DNA of 64,000 nt from contig NZ_CP151800.1 in the NCBI RefSeq assembly GCF_038449125.1, positions 3,196,406 through 3,260,405 on the forward strand, in the 5' to 3' direction. Positions 2,698 through 10,631 of this stretch are shown piece after piece. Position 1 is the first letter of the stretch, and each line of letters opens with the position of its first letter. The stretch is from Kosakonia sp. BYX6 (lineage in GTDB: Bacteria > Pseudomonadota > Gammaproteobacteria > Enterobacterales > Enterobacteriaceae). The position numbers and the translations under genes are program-made. Under the pieces are notes generated by a model. The model was not told the origin of the DNA. It saw only the letters and a program-made list of their open reading frames with translations, and did not search any database.

Positions 2698-3687
2698 TTA
2701 ACCGCCGATGTATGAAAGGTTTTGCGTAATACCTGTATTGCCCTGATGCAGGAAATGCGTCTGTTTTTTATGCGTTAACGCGCTCGCGATACGCTGTTCG
2801 AGCATCAGTTGCTGGGCGTCAGCTTGCAGCAAGTCGCGCAGATCCACGCCGCCATCGCCAAACAAACATAAATGGAGTTTGCCGGTGGACGACACGCGCA
2901 GGCGGTTGCAGCTGGCGCAGAAATCTTTTTCATACGGCATGATAAGACCGATTTCACCGACATAATCCGGGTGGCAGAACACTTGCGCCGGGCCGTCGCT
3001 GCGCTGGCGCAACTGGTGGATCCAGCCGCGTTTGAGCAGTTCGTCGCGCAAAACCATGCCGGAGAGGTGATGGTTGCGAAACAGTTCGCTTCCTTCGCCG
3101 GTCTCCATCAGTTCAATAAAGCGTAGCTGGATGGGGCGGGATTGGATCCACGCCAGAAAGGTGTCGAGCTGGTGGTGATTCACGTCGCGCATCAGCACGG
3201 TGTTGACTTTGACTTTGGCAAAGCCCGCCGTGAATGCGGCGTCGATACCCTCCATCACCTGGCGGAATTTATCCTGACCGGTAATGGCATGAAACTGGCG
3301 GGCATCGAGACTGTCGACGCTGACATTGATGGCGGTAAGCCCGGCATCGCGCCACTGGGCGACATCGCGGGAGAGGCGATAACCATTGGTGGTAACAGCA
3401 ATCTGGCGGATGGCGCTGTTTTCGCGCACCGCTGCGATGATGTCGGCGAAATCGCGACGCAGCGACGGTTCACCGCCGGTCAGGCGCACTTTTTCGGTGC
3501 CCATCGCGCTGAAGGCGCGGGTCACCCGACGAATTTCTTCGACGCTCAGAAAGCCATTATTGTTGACGCCGCTCGGTTTGTAGCCGTTCGGCAAGCAGTA
3601 GGTGCAACGAAAATTGCACACATCGGTGATCGACAAACGCAAGTAGAAGAACTTACGCGCGAACGCATCAGTCAGTTGTGAGGCCAT
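2698..3687 (-). CDS. moaA: GTP 3',8-cyclase MoaA (radical SAM)
   Basis: MoaA starts molybdenum cofactor synthesis by turning GTP into 3',8-cyclo-GTP using two [4Fe-4S] clusters. The SAM-cluster motif C-x3-C-x2-C is at residues 24-31 (VCNFRCTYC), the second cluster cysteines are in [10 protein letters not shown] with a third at LHLCLF, and the protein ends in the required Gly-Gly (SYIGG). The frame is open for 78 more codons, but the ATG at 3687 with an upstream GGAAAGG gives the 329-aa family length and leaves room for the riboswitch leader. First gene of the operon. Confidence 0.97.
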
Positions 3688-4989: not shown

Positions 4990-5014
4990 CTTAAGTTCTT
5001 AAGGTTGTCTTAAA
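4990..5014 (+). promoter_or_regulatory. PmrA (BasR) box upstream of eptA
   Basis: CTTAAG at 4998-5003, five bases, CTTAAA at 5009-5014: the PmrA direct-repeat consensus with the canonical 5-base spacer. A third CTTAAG hexamer lies 2 bases further upstream (4990-4995). The site is 45 bases before the eptA start and implies autoregulation of the eptA-basR-basS operon by BasR. Confidence 0.88.
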
Positions 5015-5058
5015 AAACGGCTGTCAGCATAGCGCTACTTTCATTGCAGGATCTGAAT

Positions 5059-6702
5059 ATGCGCATGCTTCATCTTCGTCGGCCCGCGTTGAGCCGCCTT
5101 CTTTTTATTTATCTTTTTACGCTGATCATCGCACTGGGCCTGAATATCGCCTTTTATCGCCAGGCATTTACCTTATTGCCGGTGAACACACTGCATAACT
5201 GGTTGGTGTTTCTTTCGATGCCGCTGGTCGCTTTCAGCGTCATTAATATTGTGCTCTGCCTGGCCTCGTTTATTCGCCTCGACCGGTTGGTCATTACGCT
5301 GTTTGTACTGGTCAGCGCCGCGGCGCAATATTTCATTTCGACGTTCGGTATTATTATTGACCGCTCGATGATCACCAATATTCTCGACACCACGGCGGCA
5401 GAAAGTTTCGCGCTGATGTCGACCAACATGGTGCTGACGCTGTTATTCACCGCACTTTTGCCGGTGATCGTCGCCTGGTGGATCAAAATTAAACCCAGCC
5501 GTTCCGCGTTACGCACTATTTCGCTGCGCATTGCGAGTGTGGTGATTTCCGCGCTGATTATCGTTGCTGTCGCGCTGCTGTTTTATAAAGATTACGCCTC
5601 GCTGTTTCGCAACAATAAAGAACTGGTGAAATCCCTTAGCCCGTCCAATTCTATTGCCGCGTCCTTGTCGTGGTATTCCCATAACCGTATGGACAACCTG
5701 CCGCTGGTGAAAATCGGTGAAGATGCGCACCAGCGCCCGGAAATGCAAAACGGCCCGCGCAAAAACCTGACGATTTTAGTATTGGGTGAAACATCGCGCG
5801 CGGCCGATTTTTCCCTCGGCGGGTATGCGCGTGAAACGAATCCGTTATTGAAACAGGACAATGTTGTCTATTTCCCGAACACCACGTCCTGCGGTACCGC
5901 CACCGCTGTTTCCGTGCCTTGCATGTTTTCCGGGATGACGCGCGCGCATTACGATGACCAGCTTGCGCATCATCAGGAAGGGTTGCTGGATATTATTCAA
6001 CGCGCGGGAATTCAGGTGCAGTGGAATGAAAACGACGGCGGTTGTAAAGGCGTGTGCGACCGCGTGCCACATAAAGATATGACGCAATTAAACCTGGCGG
6101 ATTACTGCATTAAAGGCGAATGCCAGGACGAAATTTTATTCCACGACCTCGCCAGTGATATCGATAAATTGCAGGGCGATGGGCTAATTGTTTTACATAC
6201 CATCGGCAGCCACGGGCCAACCTATTACAACCGTTATCCGCCGCAGTTCCGCAAATTCACGCCGACCTGCGATACCAACGAAATACAGACTTGTTCGCAG
6301 CAACAACTGGTGAATACCTACGACAACACGATTTTGTATGTCGACTATATTGTTGATAAAGCGATTAAATTGCTGCAGTCGAAGCAGGATAAGTTCACTA
6401 CCAGCCTGGTGTACCTCTCCGATCATGGGGAATCGCTGGGTGAAAATGGCGTCTATTTGCATGGTTTGCCCTACTCCATTGCGCCTGAAACGCAAAAACA
6501 TGTACCGCTGCTGATTTGGTTATCTGAGGATTATCAAAAACGTTACGCCATCAACAACCAGTGTTTGCAAAAAAATGCGCGCGAAAAGCAGGTTTCGCAG
6601 GATAATCTTTTCCCGACGATGTTGGGTCTATTGGGCGTCAGCACAAAAGAGTACCGCGCTGAAGACGATATTTTAACGCCGTGCCGGGAGCAGGCTAAAT
6701 GA
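5059..6702 (+). CDS. eptA: Lipid A phosphoethanolamine transferase EptA (PmrC)
   Basis: EptA transfers phosphoethanolamine from phosphatidylethanolamine to lipid A phosphates in the outer leaflet of the inner membrane, lowering surface charge and polymyxin binding. The N-terminal ~180 residues form five hydrophobic helices. The periplasmic sulfatase-fold domain shows the zinc/nucleophile motif set: GETSRA with E244, the nucleophile in SCGTATA at T280, and [11 protein letters not shown]. The ATG at 5059 has AGGA 7 bases upstream and gives 547 aa, the Salmonella length; a TTG at 5044 is less likely. It overlaps basR by 4 bases and follows a PmrA box. The locus is not at its K-12 position. Confidence 0.95.
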
Positions 6703-7370
6703 AGATTCTGGTGATTGAAGACGATGCCCTGCTGTTGCAGGGCTTGATTCTGGCGATGCAAAGTGAAGGTTACGCCTGCGATGGCGTCTCCACCGCACAC
6801 GAAGCGGCACTTTGCCTGGCGAACGGCCATTACAGCTTGATCGTGCTCGATTTGGGTTTACCCGACGAAGACGGTTTGCACCTGCTCACCCGGTTACGAC
6901 GGGAAAAATATACCCAGCCGGTGCTGATCCTGACCGCCCGCGATACCATTGAAGATCGCATTTCCGGGCTGGATACCGGCGCGGATGATTACCTGGTTAA
7001 ACCGTTTGCCCTCGACGAACTGAATGCCCGCATCCGCGCATTGCTGCGCCGCCATCATAATCAGGGCGATAACGAAATCACGCATGGTAATTTGACCTTG
7101 AATGTCACCCGCCGCCAGGCGTGGCTGGAGGGGCAATTGCTGGAGTTGACGCCGAAGGAGTACGCCCTGTTATCACGGCTGATGCTGAAAGCCGACAGCC
7201 CGGTGCACCGGGAAATTCTCTACAACGATATCTACAACTGGGATAACGAACCGTCGACCAACACGCTGGAAGTGCATATTCACAACCTGCGGGAAAAAAT
7301 CGGCAAATCGCGCATCCGCACGGTGCGTGGGTTCGGTTATATGCTGGTGCAACCGCAGGACAAGGACTGA
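6699..7370 (+). CDS. basR: Response regulator BasR (PmrA)
   Basis: A 223-residue OmpR-family regulator. The receiver domain has the acidic pair at E7-D8-D9, the phospho-acceptor D51 in [12 protein letters not shown]-loop ILTARD and the invariant lysine in YLVKPF. The winged-helix DNA-binding domain occupies about residues 125-220 ([33 protein letters not shown]). The match to PmrA/BasR, the ATGA overlap with eptA and the 3-base gap to basS make a pmrCAB operon. It should bind the CTTAAT-type repeats seen at 4998-5014 and 8595-8611. Confidence 0.95.
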
Positions 7371-7373
7371 CTG

Positions 7374-8486
7374 ATGGCGCTATTCAATTTCAGGCACTGG
7401 AGCATGCGCAACCGGCTGCTGCTGACCATCGGCGGCATTCTGGTGTTTTGCCAGTTGGTCAGCGTCTTCTGGCTCTGGCACGAAAGCGAAGAGCAGATCC
7501 AGTTGCTGGTGCAAAGCGCGGTTCATAACCATAACAACCGCAAACATATCGAACATGAAGTGCGCGAAGCGGTCGCCAGCTTGCTGGTGCCAAGCTTACT
7601 GATTATCGGCCTGGCGCTGCTGCTCTGTATGCAGGCGGTGAAAGCCATTACCCGACCGCTGTCGGAATTGCAGCGCGAGCTGAATAAACGCACGCCGAAT
7701 AATTTACAACCGATCACCCTGAACCACAGCGTCAGCGAAGTGGAAGCGGTGACCTCCTCAATTAACGAACTGGTTTCCCGGCTGACCTTGACCCTCGATC
7801 GGGAACGGCTGTTTACCGCCGATGTTGCGCATGAATTACGCACACCGCTCGCCGGGCTGCGGTTGCATCTGGAATTGATGGCAAAAACCAGCGGAGTGAA
7901 TGTCGAGCCGCTGGTCCAGCGCCTCGATCAAATGACGGAAAACATTGCGCAGTTGCTGCTACTGGCCCGCGTCGGGCAGTCGTTTTCGGCGGGTAGTTAC
8001 CAGCAAGTGATGCTGCTGGACGATGTGGTAACGCCGATGGCTGGCGAACTGGAAACGATGCTGGCTGCACGCGAACAAAAGCTTGTTGTGCAGGTGGAAG
8101 ACGAAGACAGGGCGGTTTCAGGCGATGCCACGCTGTTGCGGTTGCTTCTAAGAAACCTGGTGGAGAATGCGCATCGCTACAGCCCGGTAGGATCGACCAT
8201 TACCGTGCGCGTAGAACGCGCTGTAACGCCGATACTCGCCGTGGAAGACGAAGGGCCAGGTATCGACGAAAGCCGCAGTGGTGAGCTGAGTAAGGCGTTT
8301 GTGCGAATGGATAGCCGCTATGGCGGCACTGGTCTGGGGTTAAGTATTGTCTCAAGGATTGCGCAACTGCATGATGCGCAATTTTTCCTGCACAACCGCC
8401 TGAAACAAACTGGCGTGCGGGCCTGGGTTAACTTTAACTCGCCTGACAGAGGTATTGTCAGTAGCTCAGCACCCAAAGATGAGTGA
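7374..8486 (+). CDS. basS: Sensor histidine kinase BasS (PmrB)
   Basis: This 370-residue kinase has two transmembrane helices (about 15-35 and 67-88) flanking a short periplasmic loop. The loop keeps two acidic ExxE motifs, E37-S-E-E40 and E62-V-R-E65, matching the ferric-iron sensing motifs of Salmonella PmrB. The HAMP linker is followed by the H-box ADVAHELRTPL with H153, then N (LLRNLVENAHRYSP), G1 (DEGPGI) and G2 (GGTGLGLSIV) boxes. It phosphorylates BasR in response to Fe3+, Al3+ or mild acid. Its last 29 bases lie antisense to the micro-ORF at 8458-8550. Confidence 0.95.
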   Translation: MALFNFRHWSMRNRLLLTIGGILVFCQLVSVFWLWHESEEQIQLLVQSAVHNHNNRKHIEHEVREAVASLLVPSLLIIGLALLLCMQAVKAITRPLSELQRELNKRTPNNLQPITLNHSVSEVEAVTSSINELVSRLTLTLDRERLFTADVAHELRTPLAGLRLHLELMAKTSGVNVEPLVQRLDQMTENIAQLLLLARVGQSFSAGSYQQVMLLDDVVTPMAGELETMLAAREQKLVVQVEDEDRAVSGDATLLRLLLRNLVENAHRYSPVGSTITVRVERAVTPILAVEDEGPGIDESRSGELSKAFVRMDSRYGGTGLGLSIVSRIAQLHDAQFFLHNRLKQTGVRAWVNFNSPDRGIVSSSAPKDE

Positions 8487-8550
8487 AGCCAATCACTAAT
8501 GCCAGCGCGAAAGCGACGGCGAGAAACTCACGAATATTGATTTGTTGCAT
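8458..8550 (-). CDS. pmrR: Probable PmrR: 30-aa PmrA-controlled inner-membrane peptide
   Basis: This short frame encodes 30 residues: a polar N-terminus (MQQINIRE), one hydrophobic helix (about 9-22) and an aromatic C-terminus ending LWVLSY. A strong GGAGGAG Shine-Dalgarno sits 6 bases before the ATG, and a perfect PmrA box (CTTAAT-N5-CTTAAT) is 45 bases upstream. Salmonella and E. coli PmrR are PmrA-activated membrane peptides of 29-30 aa that inhibit LpxT, so that EptA can modify lipid A. Length, topology, the Phe/Trp/Tyr-rich tail (as I recall it) and the regulatory site all agree. It is antisense to the end of basS. The homology is weak by eye and rests mainly on context. Confidence 0.75.
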   Translation of the reverse strand: MQQINIREFLAVAFALALVIGFTHLWVLSY

Positions 8551-8584
8551 CAGACTCTCCTCCCGGAAAACGAAAGAGAGTCTG
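8551..8584 (-). promoter_or_regulatory. 5'-UTR hairpin around the pmrR ribosome-binding site
   Basis: A perfect 9-base inverted repeat, CAGACTCTC (8551-8559) and GAGAGTCTG (8576-8584), encloses a 16-base loop. In the mRNA the stem's 3' arm abuts the AUG and the purine-rich Shine-Dalgarno is split between the stem and loop. Such a structure could control translation of the peptide. The repeat is seen directly; its role is inferred. Confidence 0.55.
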
Positions 8585-8594
8585 ACAAAGCAAT

Positions 8595-8611
8595 ATTAAG
8601 CGGACATTAAG
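8595..8611 (-). promoter_or_regulatory. PmrA (BasR) box upstream of the micro-ORF
   Basis: On the minus strand this reads CTTAAT-GTCCG-CTTAAT, an exact match to the PmrA direct-repeat consensus with a 5-base spacer. It overlaps the stop codon of uvrB (8607-8609) and points toward the pmrR-like frame. No convincing -10 hexamer is evident downstream. Confidence 0.85.
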
Positions 8612-10631
8612 ACGCGGCAATAAACAGGTCGCGCAGTTGATGAAGCTGATCGCGCACTTTCGCCGCCTCTTCGAACTCCAGATTCTGCGCATGCTGCATC
8701 ATCTGCCCTTCCAGCTCGTGGATTTTCTGCTGCAATGCTTTCGGCGTCAGCGCCATTTCAGCGGCTTCAACCTGTGCAGGCGTACGCGATTTTCCGCGCC
8801 CTTTCGCGCGCGTTTTTGCCAACCCTTCGCCCATCGCCAGAATATCCACCACTTTCTTGTTCAGGCCCTGCGGCGTAATGCCGTGCTCGACGTTATAGCT
8901 GTGCTGTTTCTCGCGGCGACGTTCGGTTTCGCTAATCGCTTTCGCCATCGACGGCGTGATCTTATCGCCGTACAGAATCGCTTTACCGTTGATGTTACGC
9001 GCCGCACGACCGATGGTCTGAATCAACGAACGTTCGGAACGCAGGAAGCCTTCTTTGTCCGCATCAAGAATCGCCACCAGCGACACTTCCGGCATATCCA
9101 GCCCCTCACGCAGCAAGTTGATGCCCACCAGCACATCAAACTCACCGAGGCGCAAATCGCGGATGATTTCCATACGCTCGACGGTATCGATATCCGAGTG
9201 CAGGTAGCGCACCCGCTCGCCGTGCTCTTCCAGATATTCAGTTAAATCTTCCGCCATGCGTTTGGTGAGCGTGGTGACCAGCACGCGCTCGTTGATCTCC
9301 ACGCGTTTGCGGATTTCCGACAGCAAATCGTCAACTTGCGTAGCAACCGGACGCACTTCGATAATCGGATCGAGCAGACCGGTCGGGCGCACCACCTGGT
9401 CGATCACTTCGTCACCGGATTTCTCCAGTTCGTAGTTACCCGGCGTGGCTGAAACATAAATCGACTGCGGCGCCAGCGCTTCAAACTCTTCGAATTTCAG
9501 CGGGCGGTTATCAAGCGCCGACGGCAAACGGAAACCGTACTCTACCAGCGTCTCTTTGCGCGCCCGGTCACCGCGGAACATACCGCCGATTTGCGGGATC
9601 GTAACGTGGGATTCATCAATCACCAGCAAGCCATCGGCGGGCAGGTAATCGAACAGCGTTGGCGGCGGCTCGCCCGGCCCGCGCCCGGAGAGATACCGGG
9701 AGTAGTTTTCGATTCCCGAGCAATAACCCAGCTCGTTCATCATCTCCAGATCGAATTGCGTGCGCTGGCTCAGGCGCTGCTCTTCCAGCAGCTTATTGTT
9801 CGCCAGCAGCGATTTGCGGCGCTCGGCCAGCTCATCTTTGATCTCTTCCATCGCCTGCACAATACGCTCGCGTGGCGTCACGTAGTGCGTTTTAGGGTAG
9901 ATGGTGAAGCGCTGGATGCCGGCCGATTCAATATGGCCAGTCAGCGGGTCGAACAGTGAGAGGCGTTCCACCTCTTCATCAAACAGTTCGACGCGCAGCG
10001 CCAAATCGTCCGATTCCGCTGGGAAGATATCGATCACTTCGCCGCGCACGCGGAAGGTACCGCGCTGGAAGGCTTGATCGTTACGGGTATATTGCAGTTC
10101 CGCCAGGCGGCGCAGGATCGCGCGCTGATCGATGATCATCCCTTTGGTCAGGTGCAACATCATCTTCAGATACAGATCCGGATCGCCCAGACCGTAGATA
10201 GCGGAAACTGAGGCCACCACAATGACGTCGCGGCGTTCGAGCAGCGCTTTGGTGGCGGATAAACGCATCTGTTCGATGTGTTCGTTCACCGAGGCATCTT
10301 TTTCGATAAAAGTGTCCGAACTCGGGACATAGGCTTCCGGCTGATAATAGTCGTAGTAAGAGACGAAATATTCCACCGCGTTGTCCGGGAAAAACTCCTT
10401 CATTTCGCCATACAACTGGGCAGCCAGCGTTTTGTTGGGTGCCAGCACCATCGTCGGGCGTTGCAGGTCGGCAATCACATTAGCGATGGTGAATGTCTTC
10501 CCTGAACCCGTTACCCCGAGCAACGTCTGGTGCGCGAGACCGTCTTCCAGGCCTTCCTTGAGGCGACGGATAGCTTCTGGCTGATCGCCTGAAGGGCGAA
10601 AAGCGGAATTCAATTTGAACGGTTTACTCAT
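8607..10631 (-). CDS. uvrB: Excinuclease ABC subunit UvrB
   Basis: UvrB is the damage-verifying helicase-like subunit of nucleotide excision repair; it is loaded by UvrA and recruits UvrC. The 674-residue protein shows Walker A GVTGSGKT at 39-46, the beta-hairpin that clamps DNA ([16 protein letters not shown], about 92-107), DEAD-like DESHVT, helicase motif VI (QTIGRAARN) and the C-terminal UVR domain that contacts UvrC ([13 protein letters not shown]). Length and sequence are normal. A LexA box 77-96 bases upstream indicates SOS induction. Confidence 0.98.

Follow-up and report, generated by a model that had tools for sequence, protein, structure and literature searches.

The pmrR locus of a Kosakonia-type enterobacterium and a widely conserved hairpin over its Shine-Dalgarno sequence that may guard against read-through translation

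Results

A PmrA box and a 30-codon frame between uvrB and basS

The window analysed here, a stretch of 64,000 nucleotides from Kosakonia sp. BYX6, carries the genes and regulatory elements listed in Table 1. On the minus strand, CTTAATGTCCGCTTAAT at 8611-8595 is an exact PmrA box, which lies 44 nt before the pmrR ATG and holds the uvrB stop codon TAA (uvrB end 8607) in its first half-site. It is the sole exact match within the 64-kb window; when up to two mismatches were allowed, five matches were found against 2.35 expected, a number reached by 7 of 100 shuffles. GGGAGGAG lies upstream of the ATG at 8550, which starts a 30-codon frame that ends at 8458 on the minus strand, overlaps the end of basS (8486) by 29 nt and is translated as MQQINIREFLAVAFALALVIGFTHLWVLSY. 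The single hydrophobic helix of this peptide was assigned by eye from its hydrophobicity. The peptide is encoded once in the genome. Judged by PmrB, which is 86-88% identical, the closest relatives with a name are Kosakonia and an Enterobacter sp.

The initial annotation had described an exact PmrA box, a strong Shine-Dalgarno sequence (SD) and, antisense to the end of basS, a frame of 30 codons encoding one helix, with the box inside the end of uvrB and the tail of the frame inside basS; the sequence confirms all of these features. It had also called the gene unusually placed, a claim that our comparison does not support: E. coli pmrR is likewise convergent with pmrB and overlaps its end, and the copies found in our scan, which was confined to the pmrB end, adjoin or overlap it. 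Its assignment of the frame to PmrR stood, its view of the placement did not, and the hairpin over the SD had been overlooked.

Table 1. Genes and regulatory elements at the pmrR locus of the window
Feature	Position	Strand	Remarks
pmrR, 30-codon frame	8458..8550	-	one hydrophobic helix, C-terminal HLWVLSY; overlaps basS 3′ end by 29 nt; dN/dS 0.19
PmrA box CTTAAT-N5-CTTAAT	8595..8611	-	exact; uvrB stop codon inside
Predicted -10 hexamer CAGACT	8579..8584	-	10 nt after box; placed by conservation in pmrR and eptA promoters
Predicted transcription start of PmrA-driven mRNA	8571..8572	-	inferred from -10 position (6-8 nt on)
Left arm of SD hairpin, CAGACTCTCTTTC	8572..8584	-	overlaps -10; folds with 8551-8563; covariation
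Right arm of SD hairpin, GGAGGAGAGTCTG, Shine-Dalgarno	8551..8563	-	ends at start codon
Rfam RF02052 (STnc630) match, full length	8451..8619	-	39.5 bits, below 55-bit gathering score
uvrB	8607..10631	-	codirectional, upstream; expected read-through source; named by reading sequence, then used as BLAST query
basS/pmrB sensor kinase	7374..8486	+	convergent; NF008025, 554 bits
basR/pmrA response regulator	6699..7370	+	NF007928, 387 bits
eptA/pmrC phosphoethanolamine transferase	5044..6702	+	NF008619, 956 bits; start assigned mechanically, true start may be further in
PmrA box of eptA promoter	4998..5014	+	2 mismatches; -10 spacing as at pmrR

The locus recurs beside pmrB in many genomes

The 3′ side of pmrB was scanned in 80 loci and in 100 genomes (the best 100 after the window's own, of 210 matches in 392 genomes), some of which represent the same organism. 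A pmrR candidate was found in 114 of 181 regions including the window, and in 110 after four loci with three-mismatch boxes and hydrophilic frames (L021, L059, L168 and L169) were dropped from the counts. Records were obtained for 27 of 28 further regions, four of them longer refetches of earlier loci, so that box and frame recur in 137 records, some of which show one genome twice, with 99 distinct leaders, a recurrence that speaks against chance. By genome, pmrR was found beside pmrB in 70 of the 100 and not in 30. Of the 110 records, 55 have uvrB upstream of pmrR, 31 have proP and the remaining 24 have a different gene; from their translations we take these other neighbours to include flavin reductase, MsrA, UmuD, ArnT, aldo-keto reductase, esterase, aminotransferase, fimbrial, MFS, acid phosphatase and LipA genes.

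Some arrangements departed from this pattern. In one genome (G074; L224 and L231), pmrR occurs twice on a single contig; about 6.5 kb with fimbrial-type genes separates the copies, and the one adjoining uvrB is without the conserved W. In L237 (about 3010-3240), a pmrR-like frame lies directly upstream of, and codirectional with, eptA and is followed by a second PmrA-box-like site. A contig titled Chryseobacterium (L012) carries enterobacterial pmrB and pmrR beside uvrB and is probably mislabelled or contaminated.

The frame is very probably PmrR

The RefSeq pmrR of E. coli (29 aa) is convergent with and overlaps pmrB and lies before proP. According to the available part of PMC8129183, pmrR overlaps pmrB, is read in the direction opposite to eptA-pmrAB, is driven by PmrA and encodes an inhibitor of LpxT, an activity reported for both E. 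coli and Salmonella (PMC8129183 and PMC8004244, available sections). The same part of PMC8129183 describes a PmrA-constitutive strain that became susceptible to polymyxin when the PmrA box of pmrR was deleted and regained resistance when lpxT was deleted as well; this box-deletion phenotype is the one expected from loss of PmrR.

The window frame likewise overlaps pmrB convergently, follows a PmrA box and encodes about 30 aa with one helix and the residues F and W. Alignment with PmrR, which the initial annotation had proposed as a check, gave a divided result: M1, F22 and W26 are shared, and are invariant among the 27 aligned peptides, but identity to E. coli PmrR is 28% and the window peptide gave no family match to the curated PmrR model (NF033224, 30-bit cut-off) at E <= 1. 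The model matches 9 of the 27 aligned peptides at E <= 0.01. Because the curated model misses the window peptide, the identity is based on position, operator, leader and residues. On a profile built from 21 peptides of the proP group, the window peptide scored 8.2 bits, a value reached by 9 of 5000 shuffles, and 40 peptides of the uvrB group scored from 0.7 to 22.1 bits.

The frame is a coding sequence under purifying selection. In the first 20 codons of the Kosakonia-type loci, pN/pS was 0.27 (dN/dS 0.19) in frame compared with 1.8 and 2.5 in the shifted frames. Across six groups, dN/dS was 0.12-0.40 and pN/pS 0.27-0.52 in frame versus 0.75-5.4 in shifted frames. The missing match to the curated model and the low identity would also suit a different PmrA-driven one-helix peptide with another target, a reading that we consider very improbable: locus, operator, leader, length and the invariant F22 and W26 are all shared, intermediate sequences bridge the groups, and the range of uvrB-group scores on the proP-group profile also speaks against it. 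With its convergence on pmrB, the PmrA operator and -10 spacing of known pmrR, its length and topology, the three invariant residues, purifying selection and an LpxT-type gene in the genome, the frame is assigned with high confidence to PmrR, here in a Kosakonia-type enterobacterium. As such it is known biology in a new species.

LpxT candidates occur in genomes with and without pmrR

The genome of the window encodes a PAP2-family protein (L197:1414-2118) that we regard as the LpxT candidate; it was called by its neighbourhood because its best NCBIfam match was under the cut-off, and it sits between what we take, by eye, to be MepS-like and GTPase genes. Counterparts 55-85% identical to this candidate were found in 77 of 80 genomes, namely in all 50 pmrR-positive genomes searched (of 70) and in 27 of the 30 pmrR-negative ones. 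The three genomes of the 80 searched that had no counterpart were all without pmrR (p about 0.05 by hand arithmetic), a weak indication of co-occurrence. The pmrR-negative genomes comprise several genera, and LpxT was nonetheless present in 27 of the 30. Elsewhere in the own genome, a PmrA-box-like site on the minus strand (3114456-3114471, L190) lies about 0.3 kb before a plus-strand gene (L195:1318-1923) that matches a YbjG-type undecaprenyl-diphosphatase model.

The Shine-Dalgarno sequence is paired in a stem kept by compensatory change

In the window, the SD lies in an unbroken stem of 13 pairs, two of them G-U, with a folding energy of -21.3 kcal/mol and a z score of -4.5 to -5.2. The SD is the right arm, the stem closes at the start codon, and the left arm holds the -10 hexamer of the promoter. 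The repeat was also considered as an intrinsic terminator and rejected in that role, as no terminator-like site scored there in the window.

When 67 distinct leaders that follow a codirectional gene were aligned by sequence, 83.1% of the cells were paired compared with 74.1% after shuffling (0 of 500 shuffles reached the observed value), and sliding the alignment lowered the paired fraction to 38-52%. The covariation score was 0.246 versus 0.113 in shuffles (0/500), and 71 cells were changed on both sides versus 28 (0/500). Two other counts in the same leaders were not extreme: 8 pairs had a double change versus 5.8 in shuffles, a number that 29 of 500 shuffles reached, and there were 22 further pair types versus 19.6, reached by 68 of 500. 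The best column pair, 35-56, occurred as CG in 33, AU in 15, GC in 8 and GU in 8, and the RNAalifold consensus contained only six pairs, three of them with double changes. When 86 leaders were placed in a fixed, unfitted register, 590 of 860 cells were Watson-Crick pairs against 516 +/- 8 in 1000 shuffles (maximum 545), and the best register relative to the pmrR -10 and start codon was 0 in 70 of the 86.

To handle relatedness, we used a home-made simulation on the PmrB tree as the null (L043 was left out of one simulation). In 32 codirectional loci, 234 of 320 cells were Watson-Crick pairs compared with 142 +/- 20 in the simulations, none of 1000 reaching that number, and nine divergent loci showed no excess (34 of 90 versus 30; 328/1000). 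The stem over the SD is thus kept by compensatory change. G-U exceeded A-C in the core of the pmrR-sense strand (31 versus 7) in the sequence alignment only; no such asymmetry was seen in the fixed register (GU 77, AC 67), nor in the tree-based test of the 32 codirectional loci, where 561 of 1000 simulations were as extreme. The G-U excess of the alignment may reflect constraint on the SD.

Control leaders rarely folded in this way. With thresholds of dG <= -8 and z <= -2 only, 68 of 73 codirectional pmrR leaders and 3 of 26 others passed, as did 7 of 44 eptA leaders (median z 0.04). Of 62 long ORFs in the window, 33 have an SD-like start, and 2 of these 33 passed.

The hairpin mostly accompanies a codirectional upstream gene

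When the SD was additionally required to pair with the left arm, 67 of the 73 distinct leaders behind a codirectional gene had the hairpin (dG <= -8, z <= -2), as did 2 of 26 others. By codirectional neighbour, it was present in 36 of 41 leaders behind uvrB, all 24 behind proP and 7 of 8 behind other genes. In all 26 remaining leaders, the nearest gene-sized frame, which was taken as the neighbour, points away, at a distance of about 775 nt in two of them; this label had been given by default and held when it was checked afterwards. On the PmrB tree, orientation changed twice, which provides one to two independent pairs. The association between orientation and hairpin is therefore strong by counts but includes few phylogenetic events, and we regard it as suggestive.

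Among the exceptions, L118 has uvrB 4 nt upstream and no hairpin, and in L099, L116, L120, L124 and L128 the hairpin is weak or misses the SD. Conversely, a hairpin is present in L201 and L131 although neither has a codirectional neighbour; the L131 genome also has a second copy beside uvrB.

The predicted -10 hexamer lies inside the left arm

An A at position +12 from the box end and a T at +16 are present in 98 of 99 distinct pmrR leaders, and the eptA promoters have the same A in 41 of 42 and the same T in 42 of 42 distinct sequences. Since the two promoters conserve this pair of bases, the -10 hexamer is placed inside the left arm. Transcription starting 6-8 nt further along would begin at the end of the arm. 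At K. pneumoniae pbgP, PmrA footprint edges lie at -19 and -22 from the mapped starts (PMC2565834, available part), a spacing that fits the predicted pmrR start by analogy. A start at this position should produce a PmrA-driven mRNA that lacks the hairpin.

In folding predictions for the long RNA, the mean probability that the SD is unpaired was 0.00 behind proP, 0.08 behind uvrB and 0.16 behind other codirectional genes, versus about 0.4 in the short RNA started by PmrA. Loci without a codirectional neighbour gave 0.36 for the long and 0.35 for the short RNA. For the window, the probabilities were 0.0 and 0.2, respectively. The modelled freedom of the SD in the short RNA, at about 0.4 on average and 0.2 in the window, is thus only modest, which counts against the guard function proposed in the Discussion.

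Box and hairpin together also occur away from pmrB

A covariance model of box plus hairpin, applied with strict filters, matched 83 of 392 genomes and matched the own genome once; none of the 30 genomes in which pmrR was not found beside pmrB was among the 83. Twelve hits were fetched, nine of which (L232-L236, L238-L240 and L242) lie away from pmrB, with no match to pmrB, pmrA, eptA, uvrB or proP at E <= 1e-15 within about 3 kb. At about position 3000 of each of these nine loci, PmrR-like one-helix peptides ending in F-I/L-x-x-YLF stand behind a PmrA box, and in seven of them a gene that we take, by eye, to be LipA-like is located within 3 kb. The script-chosen starts in L232, L233, L238 and L239 are probably one ATG too early. 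In some of the loci the SD is covered by a strong stem (-19.1 kcal/mol in L234 and L242); because the hairpin was part of the query, the nine are not independent proof of it.

The Rfam family STnc630 covers the pmrR gene

The Rfam model RF02052 (STnc630) matched the window over its full length with 39.5 bits (E 3.4e-6), below its gathering score of 55 bits, and reached 177 bits at a locus of E. coli type and 175 bits at one of Salmonella type; a Klebsiella-type locus (L006) had no match at E <= 0.01. Ribosome profiling of EHEC indicates that STnc630 is translated, listing it as a 166-nt RNA with 502 RNA reads, 572 footprint reads and a ribosome coverage of 2.45, together with the SD aacggagga (PMC5331693, available portion). 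This SD has the same letters as that of E. coli pmrR, a match made by letters and not by coordinates. The word pmrR does not occur in the available text of PMC5331693, and no link between STnc and pmrR was found among the open-licence papers searched.

Discussion

The operator, -10 hexamer, SD and frame of pmrR, and the conservation of all four, come from the present comparison, and inhibition of LpxT is assigned by orthology. By that orthology, a one-helix membrane peptide activated by PmrA would act as an inhibitor of LpxT, leaving the 1-phosphate of lipid A available to EptA. Read-through RNA from uvrB in the window, or from proP in E. coli and Salmonella, would carry both arms of the repeat; these would fold and hide the SD, and no PmrR would be made from such RNA. 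RNA started at the PmrA promoter would be without the left arm, its SD would be freer, and the peptide would be produced only when PmrA is active.

The combined interpretation, a PmrR ortholog whose hairpin serves as a read-through guard, is the one that we favour with moderate confidence. The covarying pairing and the conserved -10 position are observed; from them we infer where transcription starts, that translation is blocked and that the hairpin acts as a guard, and we rate guarding as the function of the hairpin slightly above an even chance. Evenly poised, in our judgement, is the stronger proposal of a dedicated guard, in which the choice of promoter would set translation, PmrR would be strictly PmrA-dependent behind an active neighbour, and the guard would decay where the neighbour is divergent. 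The left arm in the window begins only 22 nt after the stop codon of uvrB. Read-through does occur in E. coli K-12: in SEnd-seq data cited in the available part of PMC10687069, upstream transcripts end inside the pmrR coding sequence, and by gene order the upstream gene is proP.

The SD would be hidden in any RNA that contains both arms, so the hairpin might instead regulate the PmrA-driven mRNA itself, with a start upstream of the left arm and an SD opened by temperature, a small RNA, Hfq or a helicase; the reported upregulation of lpxT at host temperature (PMC8129183, available part) would suit this. We consider it unlikely. For such a start, the -10 would have to lie within or next to the PmrA box, whereas A +12 and T +16, both conserved, place it in the left arm; the proP-linked stems, at -19 to -26 kcal/mol, have a very high stability for an RNA thermometer; and the loss of the hairpin at loci with a divergent neighbour would be left unexplained. 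We give about the same low weight to the possibility that the inverted repeat is a 3′-end structure of uvrB or proP, a stabiliser or exonuclease block that covers the SD incidentally. The repeat does come after the upstream stop codon and track codirectional neighbours, and E. coli upstream transcripts stop just past it, inside the pmrR coding sequence (PMC10687069, available part). However, its register to the pmrR -10 and start codon is near-fixed beside unrelated upstream genes, and its failure to score as a terminator in the window also speaks against this role.

Rather less probable still is that the repeat is a 3′ structure of the convergent basS/pmrB mRNA, which would explain the need for 103-126 bp after pmrB reported in the available sections of PMC8004244, where the same DNA is predicted to form stem-loops as the pmrB 3′ UTR. 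In those sections, colistin resistance failed with a construct ending at +86, was partial at +103 and full at +126, and pmrB mRNA was about 315-fold lower in the +86 than in the +126 construct. These ends coincide with borders of the pmrR elements, which by hand arithmetic lie in E. coli-type DNA after pmrB at +67 to +97 (hairpin), +94 to +99 (-10) and +110 to +126 (PmrA box). Against a pmrB 3′ structure, pmrB is convergent at all loci, yet the hairpin is mostly lost beside a divergent upstream gene; G-U exceeds A-C in the pmrR-sense strand of the sequence alignment; and in the same sections the pmrB ORF alone, with no downstream DNA, gave the highest pmrB mRNA, with no difference in half-life. 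The pmrR elements nevertheless offer a reading of this puzzling downstream-DNA effect at E. coli pmrB, for which either pmrR or the pmrB 3′ end may be responsible.

By balancing LpxT against EptA, PmrR influences the surface charge that governs tolerance to polymyxin and bile salts. If a read-through guard operates, it would account for pmrR being kept tightly off behind uvrB or proP unless PmrA starts the RNA, and its design would amount to a simple sequence rule that can be searched for in other short genes behind active neighbours. The hairpin is widely conserved, and both it and the guard reading seem new within the open-licence papers searched; no description of an SD hairpin was found in the available parts of PMC8004244, PMC4651636 and PMC10687069.

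The gene closest to the window frame is PmrR itself (E. coli WP_000797657; NF033224), with the same convergent overlap with pmrB, PmrA box, one-helix peptide of 29-30 aa and conserved F and W. It differs from the window in its sequence (28% identity, with the curated model missed) and in having proP rather than uvrB upstream. The present locus thus extends PmrR beyond the sequences covered by the current curated model. STnc630 spans the same elements, from PmrA box, -10 and SD hairpin through the entire pmrR frame, and is filed as an enterobacterial sRNA although its model holds a DNA operator, a promoter and pmrR; a database correction is indicated, as the family takes in the pmrR gene and is more than a plain sRNA. 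For the proposed guard, the closest parallels are phage T4 gene e and the fold-back inhibition of IS10, in which the SD is sequestered in read-through RNA. There, as would be the case at pmrR, a long RNA hides the SD, and a short RNA that starts inside the repeat leaves it free. Those are genes of a phage and a transposon, whereas pmrR is a chromosomal gene of a two-component regulon, with its -10 inside the left arm.
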